A stretch of 35,959 nt of DNA from Desulfobacterales bacterium (GTDB taxonomy: Bacteria > Desulfobacterota > Desulfobulbia > Desulfobulbales > BM004). Below are positions 17,316-33,237 of this stretch, piece after piece. The DNA is taken from the NCBI GenBank assembly GCA_021647905.1, contig JAKITW010000021.1, positions 1 through 35,959 of the forward strand. Reading direction: 5' to 3'. The position numbers were made by a program, and so were the translations under genes. The notes below the pieces were generated by a model, which was given only the letters and a program-made list of their open reading frames with translations, ran no database searches and was not told where the DNA came from. Numbering within the stretch: position 1 is the first letter of the stretch; each line of letters begins with the position of its first letter.

Positions 17316-17795
17316 TTAGGGTTGCATGCTGCGGACGATTATCTGGTTGCCGGTTACTGCAATCACCTTGATCGCACTGTCCCTGGCAATGAATTCACCG
17401 CGGCTGACCACATCCCGGCGCTGGCCGTCAATGAGCGCCACCCCGCCGGGTCGCAGGTGGGACAGCGCCTTGCCGGGGCGATTGAGCAGGTCGGCCAGGT
17501 CCGGGGACTGGGAGGTAACCCCTTTGCTTCGGGAGAGGCGGGTTCGAAGGGTTACCGGGGAACGGGCCAGGAGTTTCAGGCCGACAATGATCAACACCGG
17601 GATCAGGATCAGATCCAGGGTGAGAAAAACCGCGCCCATGGTCACCGACACCTTGTTGAACACCATGAACAACGAGTAACCGAACAGGCCCAGGGCAAAG
17701 ATCGACAGAATCCCGCCCGAGGGGATGATGATCTCGGCAATCACCACCGCCACCCCGGCCAGCTGCAATAGAATCGACAGGGCCAGGATGTTCAT
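17316..17795 (-). CDS. Short NfeD-family membrane protein (no protease domain)
   Basis: Encodes 159 residues. Membrane helices at about 3-22, 27-48 and 52-74 precede a C-terminal OB-fold NfeD domain (about 95-155, with [20 protein letters not shown]). This is the short NfeD form that normally accompanies flotillin-like proteins. The ATG overlaps the TGA of the long NfeD gene as ATGA, and floA follows after 13 bp, so the three are one translational unit. It probably supports FloA assembly. Confidence 0.93.
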
Positions 17796-19258
17796 TCTTC
17801 CTCCAGCGGCGCAACCACGATCCGGTTGCCGGTTATGGCCGTAACCCTGATCCGGCGGCCCTTTTCGAGAAACTCACCCTGGCTGACCACGTCATGCACC
17901 CAGCCGTTGATCTCGGCCTTGCCGGCCGGCCGGAGCGGGGTGGAGACCGTGCCGGTGCAGTTGACCGCCACCGGGCTGTCCGCCGCCGCCGTGACCCGGG
18001 CGTCTTCAAGGGTGGCGGCAAGATAGGGTCCGTCAACCAGCCGGCCCATTCTCGGTAACAGATAACGCAGAACCAGCAATGATGCCAGCAAGGCACAGAT
18101 AAAGGAGATCAGCACCCGGAGAATATTGTTGACCAGGAGTTTACCCTGCCAGGGCATGGCAGGGTCTGGCAGGACAAAGTCCTGAAACGAGAGGACCATT
18201 CCCACCCCGATAAAGACGAACCCGGCGATCCCGGCCAGGCCGAAACCGGGAATTACAAAAACCTCGAAACCGAGCAGCACCAGCCCCAGGGCGATGATCA
18301 GCATCTCGGTATGGTCGGCCAGCCCAAGCAGGTACTGGTTGAAAAAAACCAGCCCCAGGCAGATTATGCCGACGAGCCCGGGGATGCCGAAACCCGGGGC
18401 CTTTAACTCGGTATAGAGCGCCGCCATGCCGATCATCAGCAGGACCGGGGCCATCCCGCCGATCAACCGGCCCAGTTTCTCGGACCAGGTCGGTTGCAGC
18501 CGTATCACCCGGCCGGGCGCGACCCCAAGGGCAATGAAAAGATCGTCAAGGGAAGAGACCGTTTTTCTGGAAAAGCCAAGCTCGGCCGCCTCGCGGTCAT
18601 CCATGGTCAGCAGTTCTCCGGCCGCCACCACCGTTGTCTTCCGGTAGCCGCGATTCTCTTTCCTGCTGCTGAACTCCCCGTAATCCCGGGCATCGATATA
18701 ACGTATTTCACCGTCTTCGCCCTCCAGCCGATAGACCTCCATATCCGCGCTGACCATGGCCTCGGCCAGTACCGGCGGGTAGCCGTTTCTCCTGGCCAGG
18801 GCCCGGAACTTGGCCCGGAGCGGCGACTGGAACTTTTCACCCATCATCTTGACGCCCTCGCTGGAATAGCTGATCGGGGCCACGTCGCCCAGGGTGGTGT
18901 GCGGGGCCATATAGAGATCGTTGCAGGCCAGGGCGATCAGGGCCCCGGCCGAAATCGCCTTGTCGGCGATAAAGGCCACGGTCCGGCCCCGGGGGTCGCG
19001 AAGCAGGGTGTTGACAATGGAAAGAGCCGCATCGACCCGGCCGCCGAAGGTGTCGATCTCCAGGATGAAAAGGGTGGCTGGCCTATTGTCCGCATCCCGG
19101 ATCGCCCGGCGGATAAAGGCGGCCATCCCCGGATTCACCTCCCCGGACACCGGGATCAGGTAGACCGCGGATTCCAGGGGCTTATTGTCCGCGGCCCGGG
19201 ATGAGGGGATGATCACGGCCAGGCAGCAGAGGGTGGCAAGAAAAAGGACTCGTATCAT
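17792..19258 (-). CDS. nfeD: Long NfeD protein with ClpP-like serine protease domain
   Basis: Encodes 488 residues from the ATG at 19258 (a TTG directly before it is also in frame). Order: signal/anchor helix about 5-22; ClpP/SppA-like protease about 30-245; four to five membrane helices about 265-400; C-terminal OB-fold NfeD domain about 425-488. The protease has the oxyanion segment DTFGG (about 69-73) and nucleophile Ser103 in KAISAGALIA; Lys150 is the likely base, by analogy with the Ser-Lys dyad of archaeal PH1510. The family cleaves membrane proteins such as stomatin. The gene heads the nfeD-nfeD-floA operon. AGG lies eight bases before the start. A 105-bp repeat lies 21 bp upstream. 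Confidence 0.95.
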   Translation of the reverse strand: MIRVLFLATLCCLAVIIPSSRAADNKPLESAVYLIPVSGEVNPGMAAFIRRAIRDADNRPATLFILEIDTFGGRVDAALSIVNTLLRDPRGRTVAFIADKAISAGALIALACNDLYMAPHTTLGDVAPISYSSEGVKMMGEKFQSPLRAKFRALARRNGYPPVLAEAMVSADMEVYRLEGEDGEIRYIDARDYGEFSSRKENRGYRKTTVVAAGELLTMDDREAAELGFSRKTVSSLDDLFIALGVAPGRVIRLQPTWSEKLGRLIGGMAPVLLMIGMAALYTELKAPGFGIPGLVGIICLGLVFFNQYLLGLADHTEMLIIALGLVLLGFEVFVIPGFGLAGIAGFVFIGVGMVLSFQDFVLPDPAMPWQGKLLVNNILRVLISFICALLASLLVLRYLLPRMGRLVDGPYLAATLEDARVTAAADSPVAVNCTGTVSTPLRPAGKAEINGWVHDVVSQGEFLEKGRRIRVTAITGNRIVVAPLEEE

Positions 19259-19278
19259 CAATGGACCTGTAAGAAACC

Positions 19279-19383
19279 TGATGAACTCGTAACAACCCGA
19301 AAGGCTTCAAATGCCACCCAATAAAATCAACAAGTTACAAGACGAATCACGTCCGTCGAGCGGGTTGTTGCGAGACCGACAAA
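19279..19383 (+). repeat. 105-bp hairpin repeat, copy 1
   Basis: Identical to 33104-33208 at 104 of 105 positions, same orientation. Terminal arms CTCGTAACAACCCG (19286-19299) and CGGGTTGTTGCGAG (19361-19374) are complementary at 13 of 14 bases. It fills most of the gap between the DUF3108 stop and the long nfeD start. It has no coding capacity. Confidence 0.95.
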
Positions 19384-19399
19384 CCTGGTCGAGCCGGGA

Positions 19400-20284
19400 T
19401 TATTCAGCGTCTGTCACCCGGTTGCCGTTGTTGTCCCGGGCCAATAGTACCGGCACGGTGCGGGAGTCGACCAGGTCGGCGATAAAGCTGCCCACCACCA
19501 CCTTACTCTTTATCCGGACCGGGATCTTGGCCGCATCGGCGGTGACCCAGATCTTGAGCTTGGCGTCCTTGCTCTTTTCAAACACCCCGCCCACATGTTT
19601 CAGGTCCGGCTCAATGAGAAAGGTGTCGTATTCACGGCCGGCAACCGTGATCGTTTCCCGTTTTCGCACCCAGACGATCCCGATCACGTTTTTGTTGCCG
19701 TCGCTGATCGGCCGGGAGATCTCCATGCCCTCGCGAAGATCCAGGCTGCGCACGTAATAGAAACCGGACATGGGGTCAAAGGAGCCCTCCATCAGGGGTG
19801 AGGTCCGGTGGTCCTTGTCAAAGTTCGAATAGCGGGCCACCTTTTCGCTCCAGTCAAAAAAGACCTTGATATCTCTTCTTGCCCGGCCCTCCTGCTGGTC
19901 CTTTTTATAGAACAGCGAGTGGGTCATATCGATGTTGACAATGGAATCGACCTTGTCGCGCACCTTGTAAAAAAGATCCAGGACCTTGTTCGAGGTGGCG
20001 GTCATTCGAAAATGATGGGCGGGCTGGCCCTGAAAGGATGCCCCGGGCAGCACCTCGAGTACCGCCGTGCCGGCCGGCACCATCTGCCAGCGAAGCTGAT
20101 AGGTAAGCCTTTCCCCGGCAAGAAAGGGGACCTGCCGGCCGCTTGCCCCGGCCGGAGCGACGGCGGGGAGGAGCAGGAGAGCGCCGGCCAGAACGGAGAC
20201 AACCAGAATGACCCAGTCCCGGCCCGGCCGGGTCGCACCTTGCCGCGGCCCGGCAAGGTGATTTATTTGATCCGCTATCAGCAT
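19400..20284 (-). CDS. DUF3108 domain protein, exported
   Basis: Encodes 294 residues from the ATG at 20284 (a TTG two codons upstream is in frame). An N-terminal basic region followed by a hydrophobic helix VILVVSVLAGALLLLPAV (about 24-41) ending in AGAS gives a signal peptide or anchor. The remainder fits DUF3108, a beta-rich periplasmic fold: GERLTYQLRW near the mature N-terminus, the Phe-Tyr pairs of MSGFYYVRSLDLREG, and GREYDTFLIEP. The function of the family is not established; related folds suggest lipid or lipoprotein handling at the envelope. It is monocistronic, with the repeat copy 1 at its 3' side. Confidence 0.88.
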   Translation of the reverse strand: MLIADQINHLAGPRQGATRPGRDWVILVVSVLAGALLLLPAVAPAGASGRQVPFLAGERLTYQLRWQMVPAGTAVLEVLPGASFQGQPAHHFRMTATSNKVLDLFYKVRDKVDSIVNIDMTHSLFYKKDQQEGRARRDIKVFFDWSEKVARYSNFDKDHRTSPLMEGSFDPMSGFYYVRSLDLREGMEISRPISDGNKNVIGIVWVRKRETITVAGREYDTFLIEPDLKHVGGVFEKSKDAKLKIWVTADAAKIPVRIKSKVVVGSFIADLVDSRTVPVLLARDNNGNRVTDAE

Positions 20285-20478
20285 AAACAACCCGCTTGTT
20301 CCCCGCGGCCGACAGGCGGGCCTTTATCCGGGAATTCATATTATTTCACAATCATTCTGATTTACCCGCCTTTGCCGGCCCTGTCAACAGAAACGGATGA
20401 TACGGGCAATGGGTGAACCGTACAATGCCGGGACCGGTATCAGGTTCCAGGACAAGCTGCCGCCACTGCCCACGGTCC

Positions 20479-24672: not shown

Positions 24673-26345
24673 TGAACTTGCTGGAACTCAAGGAGCTTTC
24701 GCTGACCATCCACACCGAGACCGGCCCGGAACAGGTGCTTGATTCGGTGTCCCTGACCGTTGCCCCGGGCCAGACCGTGGCCCTGGTGGGTGAGTCCGGC
24801 TCCGGCAAGTCGGTAACCGCCTTGTCGATCCTGAGACTCCTGGAACGGACCGCCACGGTGAGCATGCGCGGGGAGATTCTGTTCGAGGAGCAGGACCTCC
24901 TGACCAGCAGCGAGGAACAGGTCCGCAGGCTGCGCGGCAACCGGATAGCGATGATCTTCCAGGAGCCGATGACCTCGCTCAACCCGGTCTACACCATCGG
25001 CGCCCAGGTAATGGAATCCCTGATTCTCCACCAGGGACTTGCCAGACAGGAGGCCCGGGACAAGGCGATCAACCTGCTGGCCCGGACCGGGATTCCGGAC
25101 CCGGAACAACGGCTGGCCAGCTATCCCCATCAACTCTCCGGCGGGCAACGGCAGCGGGTGATGATCGCCATGGCCCTGGCCTGCCGGCCGGCCCTGTTGA
25201 TCGCCGATGAGCCGACCACCGCGCTGGACGTCACCATCCAGGCCCAGATCCTGGCCCTGATCAAGGACCTGCAACGGGAAATGGGCATGGCCGTACTCCT
25301 GATTACCCATGATCTCAACATGGTGCGCAAGATTGCCGGCCAGGTTCACATCATGCGCCAGGGCCGGATAGTCGAGCAGGGAGATACCGAACAGATCTTT
25401 ACCAACCCGGTCGATTCCTACACCCGACATCTGCTGGCCAGCGTGCCCAGGGGCTTCCCGGAGCCAAGACCCCGGGGAGCCCCCCTGCTCACAATTAAGG
25501 ACATGCGCTGTCATTTTCCGATCAAGGCCGGGTTCTTTAAAAAAACCGTGGGCCTGATCAAGGCGGTGGACGGGATCTCGCTCACCATCCGCCAGGGATC
25601 CACCTATGGGGTGGTGGGCGAATCTGGCTCGGGCAAGTCCACTCTGGGGATGTGTCTGTTGCGACTCACCGGCTGCCAGGGCCGGATCCGTTACATGCGG
25701 GAGAACGGGGAAATCGATCTGCTCGCCCTTGACATCGCCGGGATGAGGCCCCTGCGCAAGGAGTTGCAGGTGGTGTTCCAGGATCCTTTTTCCTCGCTCT
25801 CGCCCCGGTTGACCGTTGAGGAGATCATCAACGAGGGGCTCAAGGTGCATGGAATCGGCAGAGATAAAAGAAAACAGCGGCAACTGGTGGAACAGAGTCT
25901 GCTGGAGGTGGGGCTTGTTCCGGAGATGGCGGACCGCTATCCCCATGAATTCTCCGGGGGCCAGCGGCAGCGAATCGCCATTGCCCGGGCCGTGGCCCTG
26001 AAACCGCGGTTTCTGGTGCTGGACGAGCCCACCAGCGCCCTGGACATGACCATCCAGGCCCAGATCATCGAGCTGCTCAAGGACCTCCAGACAAGACTCG
26101 GAATGACCTATCTGTTCATCTCCCATGACCTGCGGATAATCCGGGCCCTGTGTGACGAGGTGGCGGTGATGAAGGAAGGGCTGATCGTGGAATCAGGACC
26201 GGCCGGCGAAATCTTCCGCAACCCCACCCATCCCTATACCCGCAAACTCTTTGCCGCGGCCTTTGGGCTGGAAACGGATGAGCCGGGAACTGGAGAAACA
26301 ACCAGCATGGCCGGCCAATATGGTCCAGCCACAACAAAAGAATGA
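24669..26345 (+). CDS. yejF: Duplicated ABC ATPase YejF
   Basis: Encodes 558 residues with two complete nucleotide-binding domains. Domain 1 has Walker A GESGSGKS (41-48), signature LSGGQRQR (156-163) and Walker [10 protein letters not shown]. Domain 2 has Walker A GESGSGKS (317-324), signature FSGGQRQR (428-435) and Walker B LVLDEPTS. Both keep the switch histidines (THD, SHD). This fused arrangement is that of YejF, which energises YejB/YejE. The C-terminus runs about 25 residues past the conserved end; its last six codons and the stop fall in repeat copy C. A second ATG directly follows the first; either gives the same protein bar one residue. Confidence 0.95.
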
Positions 26346-31541: not shown

Positions 31542-33023
31542 TTACTTCCAGTTACGGATCAGTTCAATAAAGGTTCTGGCCCCGATACCGGAAGGTCCTT
31601 TCGGTATATATGACTTTTCGGTAAAATTCCAGGCCGTGCCGGCAATGTCGAGATGGACCCAGGGGATATCGTTGACAAATTCCTGGAGAAATACGGCCGC
31701 GGTAATGGTGCCGCCGGCCCGGTTGCCCACGTTCTTGATGTCAGCCACCTCTGATTTTATCTGCTTGCGATACTCGGGACCCAGGGGCAGCCGCCAGACC
31801 GGTTCGCCGCTGCGCCCGGCAGCATCAGCCACCCGGGCGGCAAGATCGTCGTCATTGGCCAGCATCCCGGTCCGGTGATGCCCCAGGCCGATAACCACCG
31901 CGCCGGTCAGGGTGGCGATATCGATCACTGCCGCGGGTTTGAACTTTTCGATGGCATAGGCCAGGGCATCGGCCAGTATCAACCGTCCTTCGGCATCGGT
32001 ATTGACCACCTCAACGGTTTTACCGTTGTAAACAGTGATGATGTCTCCTGGTTTAAGGGCCGCCGGGCCGGGCAGATTCTCGGTGGCCGGAACCACGGCC
32101 ACCACGTTGACTTTTCCGGGCTTTTCCGCGGCCACCGCCTGCATGGCCGCCAGGACCGCGGCGCCGCCGCACATATCATACTTCATCTCTTCCATCTTGG
32201 CCGAGGGCTTGATGCTGATCCCGCCGGAATCAAAGGTAAGCCCCTTGCCCACCAGGAGCAGGGTCGGCGCTTTTTTCGATACCCGGTATTCAACGATCAC
32301 CAGGGCCGGCGGCCGGGCCGAACCGCTGTTGACCCCGAGAATCCCGCCCATGCCCATTTTTTTCATCTCGTTCTTGCCCAGCACCGTGCAGACCAGGCTC
32401 CCGTCCCGGGCCAGCATCTCGCCGAACTCGGCAAAACTGGCCGGGGTCCAGACGTTTCCCGGTTCATTGGCCATGTCCCGGGCCGCGCAGCCGGCGGCCG
32501 CGGCTGCCGCGCCTCTCTTTATTCCCCTGGCCGTTGCAGCCCCGGTCGCACTGCTCAACAGTATGCTCTCAATCCTGCCCGGCGCCTCATCCTCCGGTTC
32601 AACGGTCATATATTTGCGGAATTGATAGGCGCCCAGCAAGAGCCCCTCGGTAAGACATTCAGCCATTTCGGCTGGATCAAAATCGAGCCGGCCGGGCAGG
32701 ACCGCCATCATCTTTGTCGCCCTGGTCTTCTGGCCGGCGGCCGCTGCCGTACCGCCGGCCAGCCGGAAAAGCTCCCGGTCAAGTGGTTCCCGGCCCAGCC
32801 CCACCACCAGCAATCGATTCGCCTTGACCCCCTGTTGCGGATAGACCAACAGGGTCTGGCCGGCCTTGGCCGTGAAATCACCGCTCCGATAGGCCCGGTC
32901 GATAACCGGGTCCAGCACGGGATTGCCGCATACAGGTATGTTGTTCTCGGCCGGCCGGCGGACAAAATAGACCAGCAGGTCGCCGCTGAATGTTTCCGGC
33001 CTCCGTTGTGACGCTTTGATCAT
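31542..33023 (-). CDS. pepA: Leucyl aminopeptidase, M17 family
   Basis: Encodes 493 residues, close to E. coli PepA (503). The C-terminal catalytic domain has the two-metal site K260, D265, D283, D343 and E345, and catalytic-type K272 and R347, in the family signatures GKGLTFDSGGISIKP (259-273) and NTDAEGRLILADAL (341-354). The N-terminal domain (about 1-165) is the usual variable macrodomain-like half. It removes N-terminal residues from peptides in the cytoplasm and in some bacteria also binds DNA. ATG with AAGGAG upstream. It is the first gene of the minus-strand run down to AsmA. Confidence 0.97.
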   Translation of the reverse strand: MIKASQRRPETFSGDLLVYFVRRPAENNIPVCGNPVLDPVIDRAYRSGDFTAKAGQTLLVYPQQGVKANRLLVVGLGREPLDRELFRLAGGTAAAAGQKTRATKMMAVLPGRLDFDPAEMAECLTEGLLLGAYQFRKYMTVEPEDEAPGRIESILLSSATGAATARGIKRGAAAAAAGCAARDMANEPGNVWTPASFAEFGEMLARDGSLVCTVLGKNEMKKMGMGGILGVNSGSARPPALVIVEYRVSKKAPTLLLVGKGLTFDSGGISIKPSAKMEEMKYDMCGGAAVLAAMQAVAAEKPGKVNVVAVVPATENLPGPAALKPGDIITVYNGKTVEVVNTDAEGRLILADALAYAIEKFKPAAVIDIATLTGAVVIGLGHHRTGMLANDDDLAARVADAAGRSGEPVWRLPLGPEYRKQIKSEVADIKNVGNRAGGTITAAVFLQEFVNDIPWVHLDIAGTAWNFTEKSYIPKGPSGIGARTFIELIRNWK

Positions 33024-33103
33024 TCCATGCTCCTTTTTTCTTTGGACTTTCCCGGCTATTGACTAAGGTATTGCAATCGAAAAAACTCGTTTGCCGGTAA
33101 AAT

Positions 33104-33208
33104 TGATGAACTCGTAACAACCCGAAAGGCTTCAAATGCCACCCAATAGAATCAACAAGTTACAAGACGAATCACGTCCGTCGAGCGGGTTGTTGCGAGA
33201 CCGACAAA
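33104..33208 (+). repeat. 105-bp hairpin repeat, copy 2
   Basis: Matches 19279-19383 with a single A/G difference (33150), with the same terminal CTCGTAACAACCCG and CGGGTTGTTGCGAG arms. Sequence on both sides outside the 105 bases is unrelated to that around copy 1. Confidence 0.95.
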
Positions 33209-33209
33209 A

Positions 33210-33237
33210 TTGTCAACCCGTGTAACCCCGTTATAAT
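33210..33237 (+). promoter_or_regulatory. Sigma-70-type promoter for the DUF21 gene
   Basis: TTGTCA (33210-33215), 16-bp spacer, perfect TATAAT (33232-33237). It would start transcription near 33244, giving a leader of about 94 bases. The -35 box begins two bases after the end of repeat copy 2. Confidence 0.6.

Follow-up and report, generated by a model that had tools for sequence, protein, structure and literature searches.

Among the described repeats that resemble the element reported here are the Correia elements of Neisseria (CREE/NEMIS): they are ~105–155 bp long, have inverted ends, duplicate their target and occur at high copy number. The 155-bp Correia form contains an internal IHF site and binds IHF in vitro (PMC2229807), and Correia elements with an IHF site influence the expression of mtrCDE (PMC10969869). 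QMITE1 of Coxiella burnetii is likewise a MITE: it combines inverted and direct repeats with the IHF consensus WATCAANNNNTTR (PMC5896051). The Chunjie MITE comes from a host formerly classified as deltaproteobacterial, Geobacter uraniireducens (PMC10969869), but is 235 bp long. On the transposase side, the IS1182 family, to which the presumed mover of our element is related, includes IS1272, which reportedly targets inverted repeats or replaces them (PMC5678879).

The element that we describe is 101 bp long and differs from both Correia elements and QMITE1 in its ends, duplication and fixed length, in having a right end that covaries, and in occurring throughout an order and outside it. Correia elements generate a TA duplication and have other ends, and their ~107-bp form lacks the IHF insert, whereas the 101-bp element keeps its IHF site and a fixed length across the order. 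QMITE1 is ~400 bp long, has another sequence and belongs to a single species. New insertions of IS1272 leave no duplication, in contrast to the regular 6–7 bp duplication of the 101-bp element, which carries no gene. No description of this element was found in the literature searched.

The window, meaning the whole 35,959-nt stretch analysed, is one contig (C21) of a draft genome of 2.73 Mb in 118 contigs that is 98% complete. As the original prediction stated, it contains two directly repeated copies at a distance of 13,825 bp, which differ at a single base (A at 19324 in copy 1, G at 33149 in copy 2). The repeat had been taken as a 105-bp unit; it is real, but its length is 101 bp, the surplus T and AAA coming from the flanking duplications. 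Its ends, GATGAACTCG on the left and CGAGACCGAC on the right, are fixed because these duplications delimit the element in 106 copies. Copy 1 occupies 19280–19380 on the plus strand, between two AAACCT duplications (19274–19279 and 19381–19386) that are supported by the sequence and by the genome-wide statistics, and begins with the left terminal repeat GATGAACTCGTAACAACCCG (19280–19299, plus strand), of the same end class as IS1182-like elements. Copy 2 lies at 33105–33205 on the plus strand, between two AAAATT duplications (33099–33104 and 33206–33211). Neighbouring gene coordinates bore out that both copies are located on the 5' side of genes. A minus-strand gene (17792–19261) starts ~18 bp from copy 1, which lies upstream of it and just beyond the end of another gene (19400–20290), and copy 2 lies between divergent genes, one on the minus strand (31542–33023) and one on the plus strand starting at ~33.27–33.34 kb. 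The 14-bp inverted arms described earlier are present with 13 of 14 positions paired, but they start 6 bp inside each end. The flanks are unrelated overall except for the 6 duplicated bases, which are shared. The earlier reading omitted two further features, the central IHF consensus and the right-end hairpin.

The repeat had been thought to be present twice. A 19-bp left-end pattern, allowing up to two mismatches, matched the genome 143 times, while the reversed pattern used as a control gave no match; the genome contains at least 143 copies. The genome stretches around the listed copies held 107 complete copies, 106 of which were analysed with their flanks. Perfect target-site duplications of 6–8 bp bordered 100 of these 106, against ~4 expected from shuffled flanks (6 bp or longer). 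The duplication measured 6 bp in 79 copies, 7 bp in 19 and 8 bp in two, was absent in six, and had the consensus AAWNWT. About 16 copies adjoin another element, the duplication being shared between them. More than half of the full-length copies (55 of 105) equal the consensus exactly and the rest mostly deviate by one or two bases, although an older minority exists. The copy number, near identity, perfect duplications and unrelated flanks uphold the proposed recent movement and indicate that the repeat multiplied very recently in this genome by transposition. Gene conversion, named earlier as an alternative, and a segmental duplication holding the only two copies are both ruled out as the source of the copies by their number and by the duplications at each end.

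A 101-bp sequence without a coding gene, with terminal inverted repeats, target-site duplications and many copies, is by definition a MITE, a non-autonomous DNA transposon; the further hallmark of ends shared with an autonomous element was found in related genera and not within the same genome. The high copy number, the hairpin and the intergenic bias would also suit REP/BIME-type repeats spread by a REP-associated tyrosine (RAYT) transposase. Single-strand HUH transposition, however, leaves no target-site duplications, which here accompany nearly all copies, and we give this origin practically no credence.

The MITE is not peculiar to its host. In relatives of the same order, first-pass partial matches turned out to be entire elements bordered by duplications of their own, and they aligned nearly without gaps. 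A covariance model found matches, nearly always of exactly 101 bp, in 81 of 160 genomes of the order and in 40 of 56 genera. The 54 aligned examples, drawn from 33 genomes, measured exactly 101 bp in 41 cases and 99–103 bp in the others. Their interiors have diverged past recognition around four conserved blocks at positions 1–4 and 8–16, 45–59 (the centre), 71–74 and 80–81, and 83–101, and the only peaks of conservation are the two ends, the IHF motif and the right hairpin. Scanning the contigs of named genomes by end sequence alone revealed the same ends at more than 118 loci, nearly all in Desulfobacterota (Desulfobacterales, Desulfobulbaceae, Syntrophaceae) and some in Nitrospirae, with element lengths mostly near 99–101, 130–136, 143 and 151–155 bp. 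The best periodicity of these lengths was ~10.5 bp over 43 clusters and 11.8 bp once the 99–103 bp class was removed; this is a weak test, and steps of about one helical turn are suggestive only. Viral contigs gave no match with the first pattern and 14 loci with the TIR pattern, and the element was unmatched in the plasmid search.

Several other families were seen alongside. Two genomes (G014 and G036) carry a related 152–153 bp family with duplications (L166, L182, L183); the difference between 153 and 101 bp is about five helical turns. In the window's own genome, other MITE families of ~54, 114 and 150 bp have the same left end and different interiors (L229 at 1500 on the minus strand, L231 at 1501, and C17:13334–13387), the L231 element having a 6-bp duplication, AACTGT. 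The repeat GTCATTCCCGCGAAAGCGGGAATCCAG occurs inside 130–136 bp elements with the same ends and duplications (L242, L301, L313, L349 and others), and part of this repeat class may belong to the same transposon system.

A transposase with the same ends was present in relatives. The MITE shares its type of ends (GATGGNCTCGTAAAAAGTC) and its 6–7 bp duplications with IS1182-like elements, ~1.9 kb long, that occur in related genera. These elements were reached by searching the order with the ISNCY transposase profile, the weak C-terminal matches of which led to an element in G088. This element is 1,893 bp long, ends in GATGGCATCGCAAAAAGTC and GATGGCTAGGCAAAAAGTC and has the duplications AGAACTT and AAAGATT; its 573-aa protein is closest to the NCBIfam IS1182 model (E=1e-44) and matches Pfam DDE_Tnp_1_6, DDE_Tnp_1 and DUF772. 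Since its score of 152.9 bits lies below the curated cut-off of 270, even though IS1182 is the best family by far, we call the candidate mover IS1182-like and not IS1182. Transposase homologues were found in 32 of 258 genomes of the order, and like ends with 6–7 bp duplications also in G076, G065, G133, G240, G241 and G141; duplications of the IS1182-like elements include AACCTT, AACTTT, AAACAT, AGAACTT and AATTTT. The IS in G240 has the rare end variant CTCGTAACAAC that the MITE of the present genome also carries. In G076, one IS copy and 101-bp elements form a tandem array with nothing between them but 6-bp direct repeats, of which the outer ones have one mismatch, and G193 carries one IS1182-like copy flanked by two 101-bp elements. 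Because ends and duplications are shared, these comparisons strongly support that the 101-bp element belongs to an IS1182-like cut-and-paste system and was probably moved in trans.

The transposase did not turn up in the host itself. No IS1182-like transposase was found in this draft genome or its family, nor any long element or IS end in the genome that matches the ends of the 101-bp element. Five element-rich genomes (G036, G063, G075, G094, G154) likewise gave no IS1182-like match, and the right outer end of the element, GTCG, is unlike the GATG ends of the IS. These observations would fit a MITE with a different mover: a transposase distant from the IS1182-like enzyme, and either missing from the assembly or since lost. 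In contrast, the ends, the duplication length, the A/T-rich target and the tandem arrays all agree with IS1182-like elements, and we regard a different mover as unlikely. We favor the IS1182-like system, and the mover of the copies in this particular genome may be unassembled, lost or more distant.

Other candidates were rejected. The sole DDE gene found in this genome (contig C6, 616 aa) lacks matching inverted ends, and it has no relatives in 37 other genomes. This gene (L129, C6:52559–54406), the only DDE_Tnp_1 gene found in the genome, is weakly similar to IS1380 and IS481 models, is present as a single copy plus a fragment on C33 and is missing from relatives. ISNCY_1 was dismissed as well, its full-score members having other ends (GTGTCC...) and TAACTA-type duplications. 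ISNCY-like elements of ~1.47–1.49 kb at L378, L383, L384 and L394 are bordered by 6-bp duplications such as TAATTA, and their ends, GTCGNNNNTGAAAAA, resemble the right end of the MITE. Searches of the own genome by ends alone returned the other MITE families and IS66-like insertions and no autonomous partner, and no convincing pair of long TIRs with duplications emerged from G075, G014 or the contigs of named genomes.

The centre of the element, AATCAACAAGTTA, fits the IHF consensus WATCAANNNNTTR (PMC5896051) exactly. It occupies element positions 46–58, which correspond to 19325–19337 in copy 1 and 33150–33162 in copy 2 (both plus strand). Of 43 independent element clusters with little interior sequence in common, 25 carry the consensus (at most one mismatch) no more than 10 bp from the centre, against 0.9 expected from shuffles. 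Clusters retrieved by their ends alone were also enriched (7 of 22 against 0.5 expected), even though some letters of the IHF motif were excluded by the pattern used; therefore, the search model does not account for the central motif. The element thus shares with IHF-site Correia elements the IHF consensus itself. The genome encodes four HU/IHF-family proteins, two alpha-like and two beta-like, which all score best to IHF models at values below the curated cut-offs. IHF is predicted, from the motif, to bind at the element centre. Five of eight IS1182-like elements also have an IHF-like site 17–75 bp from an end (1.6 expected, P ~0.01), recalling Tn10, which has an IHF site.

These observations lead us to the following model, to which we assign a probability of about 0.75: the repeat is a recently multiplied MITE, moved in trans by an IS1182-like transposase, with a centre bent by IHF. 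The transposase (DUF772 plus DDE) would recognise GATGRNCTCGYAAAAAG-type ends and move the 101-bp element, while IHF bound at the central consensus would bend the DNA sharply. The bend may bring both ends together in one transpososome although the fragment is shorter than the persistence length of DNA, and folding by IHF would lock the element length at 101 bp. A need for the IHF bend would explain why length and central motif persist as the remaining sequence drifts.

The central motif could instead have nothing to do with transposition and be an IHF-regulated or other regulatory module, brought to promoters and retained for its benefit to the host. The insertions do prefer AT-rich stretches (flank GC 41% versus 57%) and avoid long open frames (48% of insertion sites versus 70% of random control sites), and the effect of IHF-site Correia elements on mtrCDE offers a precedent. 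However, the motif is central in unrelated families of differing length, which points to a structural need and not to host regulation, and every genome has young copies of its own, too recent for host selection to have retained the motif. We therefore consider a regulatory origin of the motif quite improbable and retain the role in transposition.

At the right end, positions 72–82 form an inverted repeat with 91–101. In copy 1, the inner arm lies at 19351–19361 and the outer arm and right terminal repeat at 19370–19380; in copy 2 the hairpin spans 33176–33205 (arms 33176–33186 and 33195–33205), all on the plus strand. Across 26 elements, 83.6% of cells pair versus 69.3% after shuffling, and 31 cells are doubly changed versus 9, a value reached by 0 of 500 shuffles. 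The terminal repeats (positions 1–16 with 86–101) pair in 78.8% of cells across genera, most strongly at 8–16 with 86–94, and show no left–right covariation at their variable outer positions. Since the hairpin covaries and these positions do not, the right end has a structure of its own, and this structure, be it a hairpin, a cruciform or a two-fold transposase site, probably marks the end.

Compensatory changes of this kind, together with a duplication that varies from 6 to 8 bp, raise the question of an RNA-based, SINE-like element in which the hairpin is an RNA structure and the copies arise by reverse transcription. The element has no match in Rfam, its inverted terminal repeats are common to DDE elements, an IHF site works on double-stranded DNA, and the duplications are mostly of one length, as with DDE enzymes; we judge this origin highly improbable and hold to DNA transposition. 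A broader generalisation, a phylum-wide class of minimal transposons with an IHF-folded centre, a locked length, lengths stepping by ~10.5 bp and a covarying right hairpin, is tentative, and we place it at somewhat below even odds; the helical steps in it are suggestive only.

This study gives a name to a very abundant intergenic repeat class of sulfate-reducing and related bacteria, undescribed in the literature searched, and ties it to a transposase family, the IS1182-like one. The fixed length and central IHF site provide a test case for the transposition of DNA too short to bend unaided, and the ~140 natural insertions can be used for target-site and promoter studies.

The element is itself a target of insertion. 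An element that we term IS66-like from its end sequence only (ends GTAAACATTCAGTAAACCCC and GTAAGGTTTCGGTAAACCCC) has repeatedly entered the right hairpin at one and the same site, mostly at contig breaks: L194 (C24:30996), L197 (C43:96), L201 (C71:139), L203 (C79:13075), L204 (C86:892), L198 (C46), L205 (C107) and L200 (C68), and also on C35 and C70. C86 carries a 65-bp miniature of it with the 8-bp duplication CACGAGAC, and at L188 the end GTAAGCGTTCACC lies at the same kind of place. Within the window, a 110-nt direct repeat (25206–25315 and 26022–26131, 72% identity, 816 bp apart) is probably a duplicated domain or gene segment.
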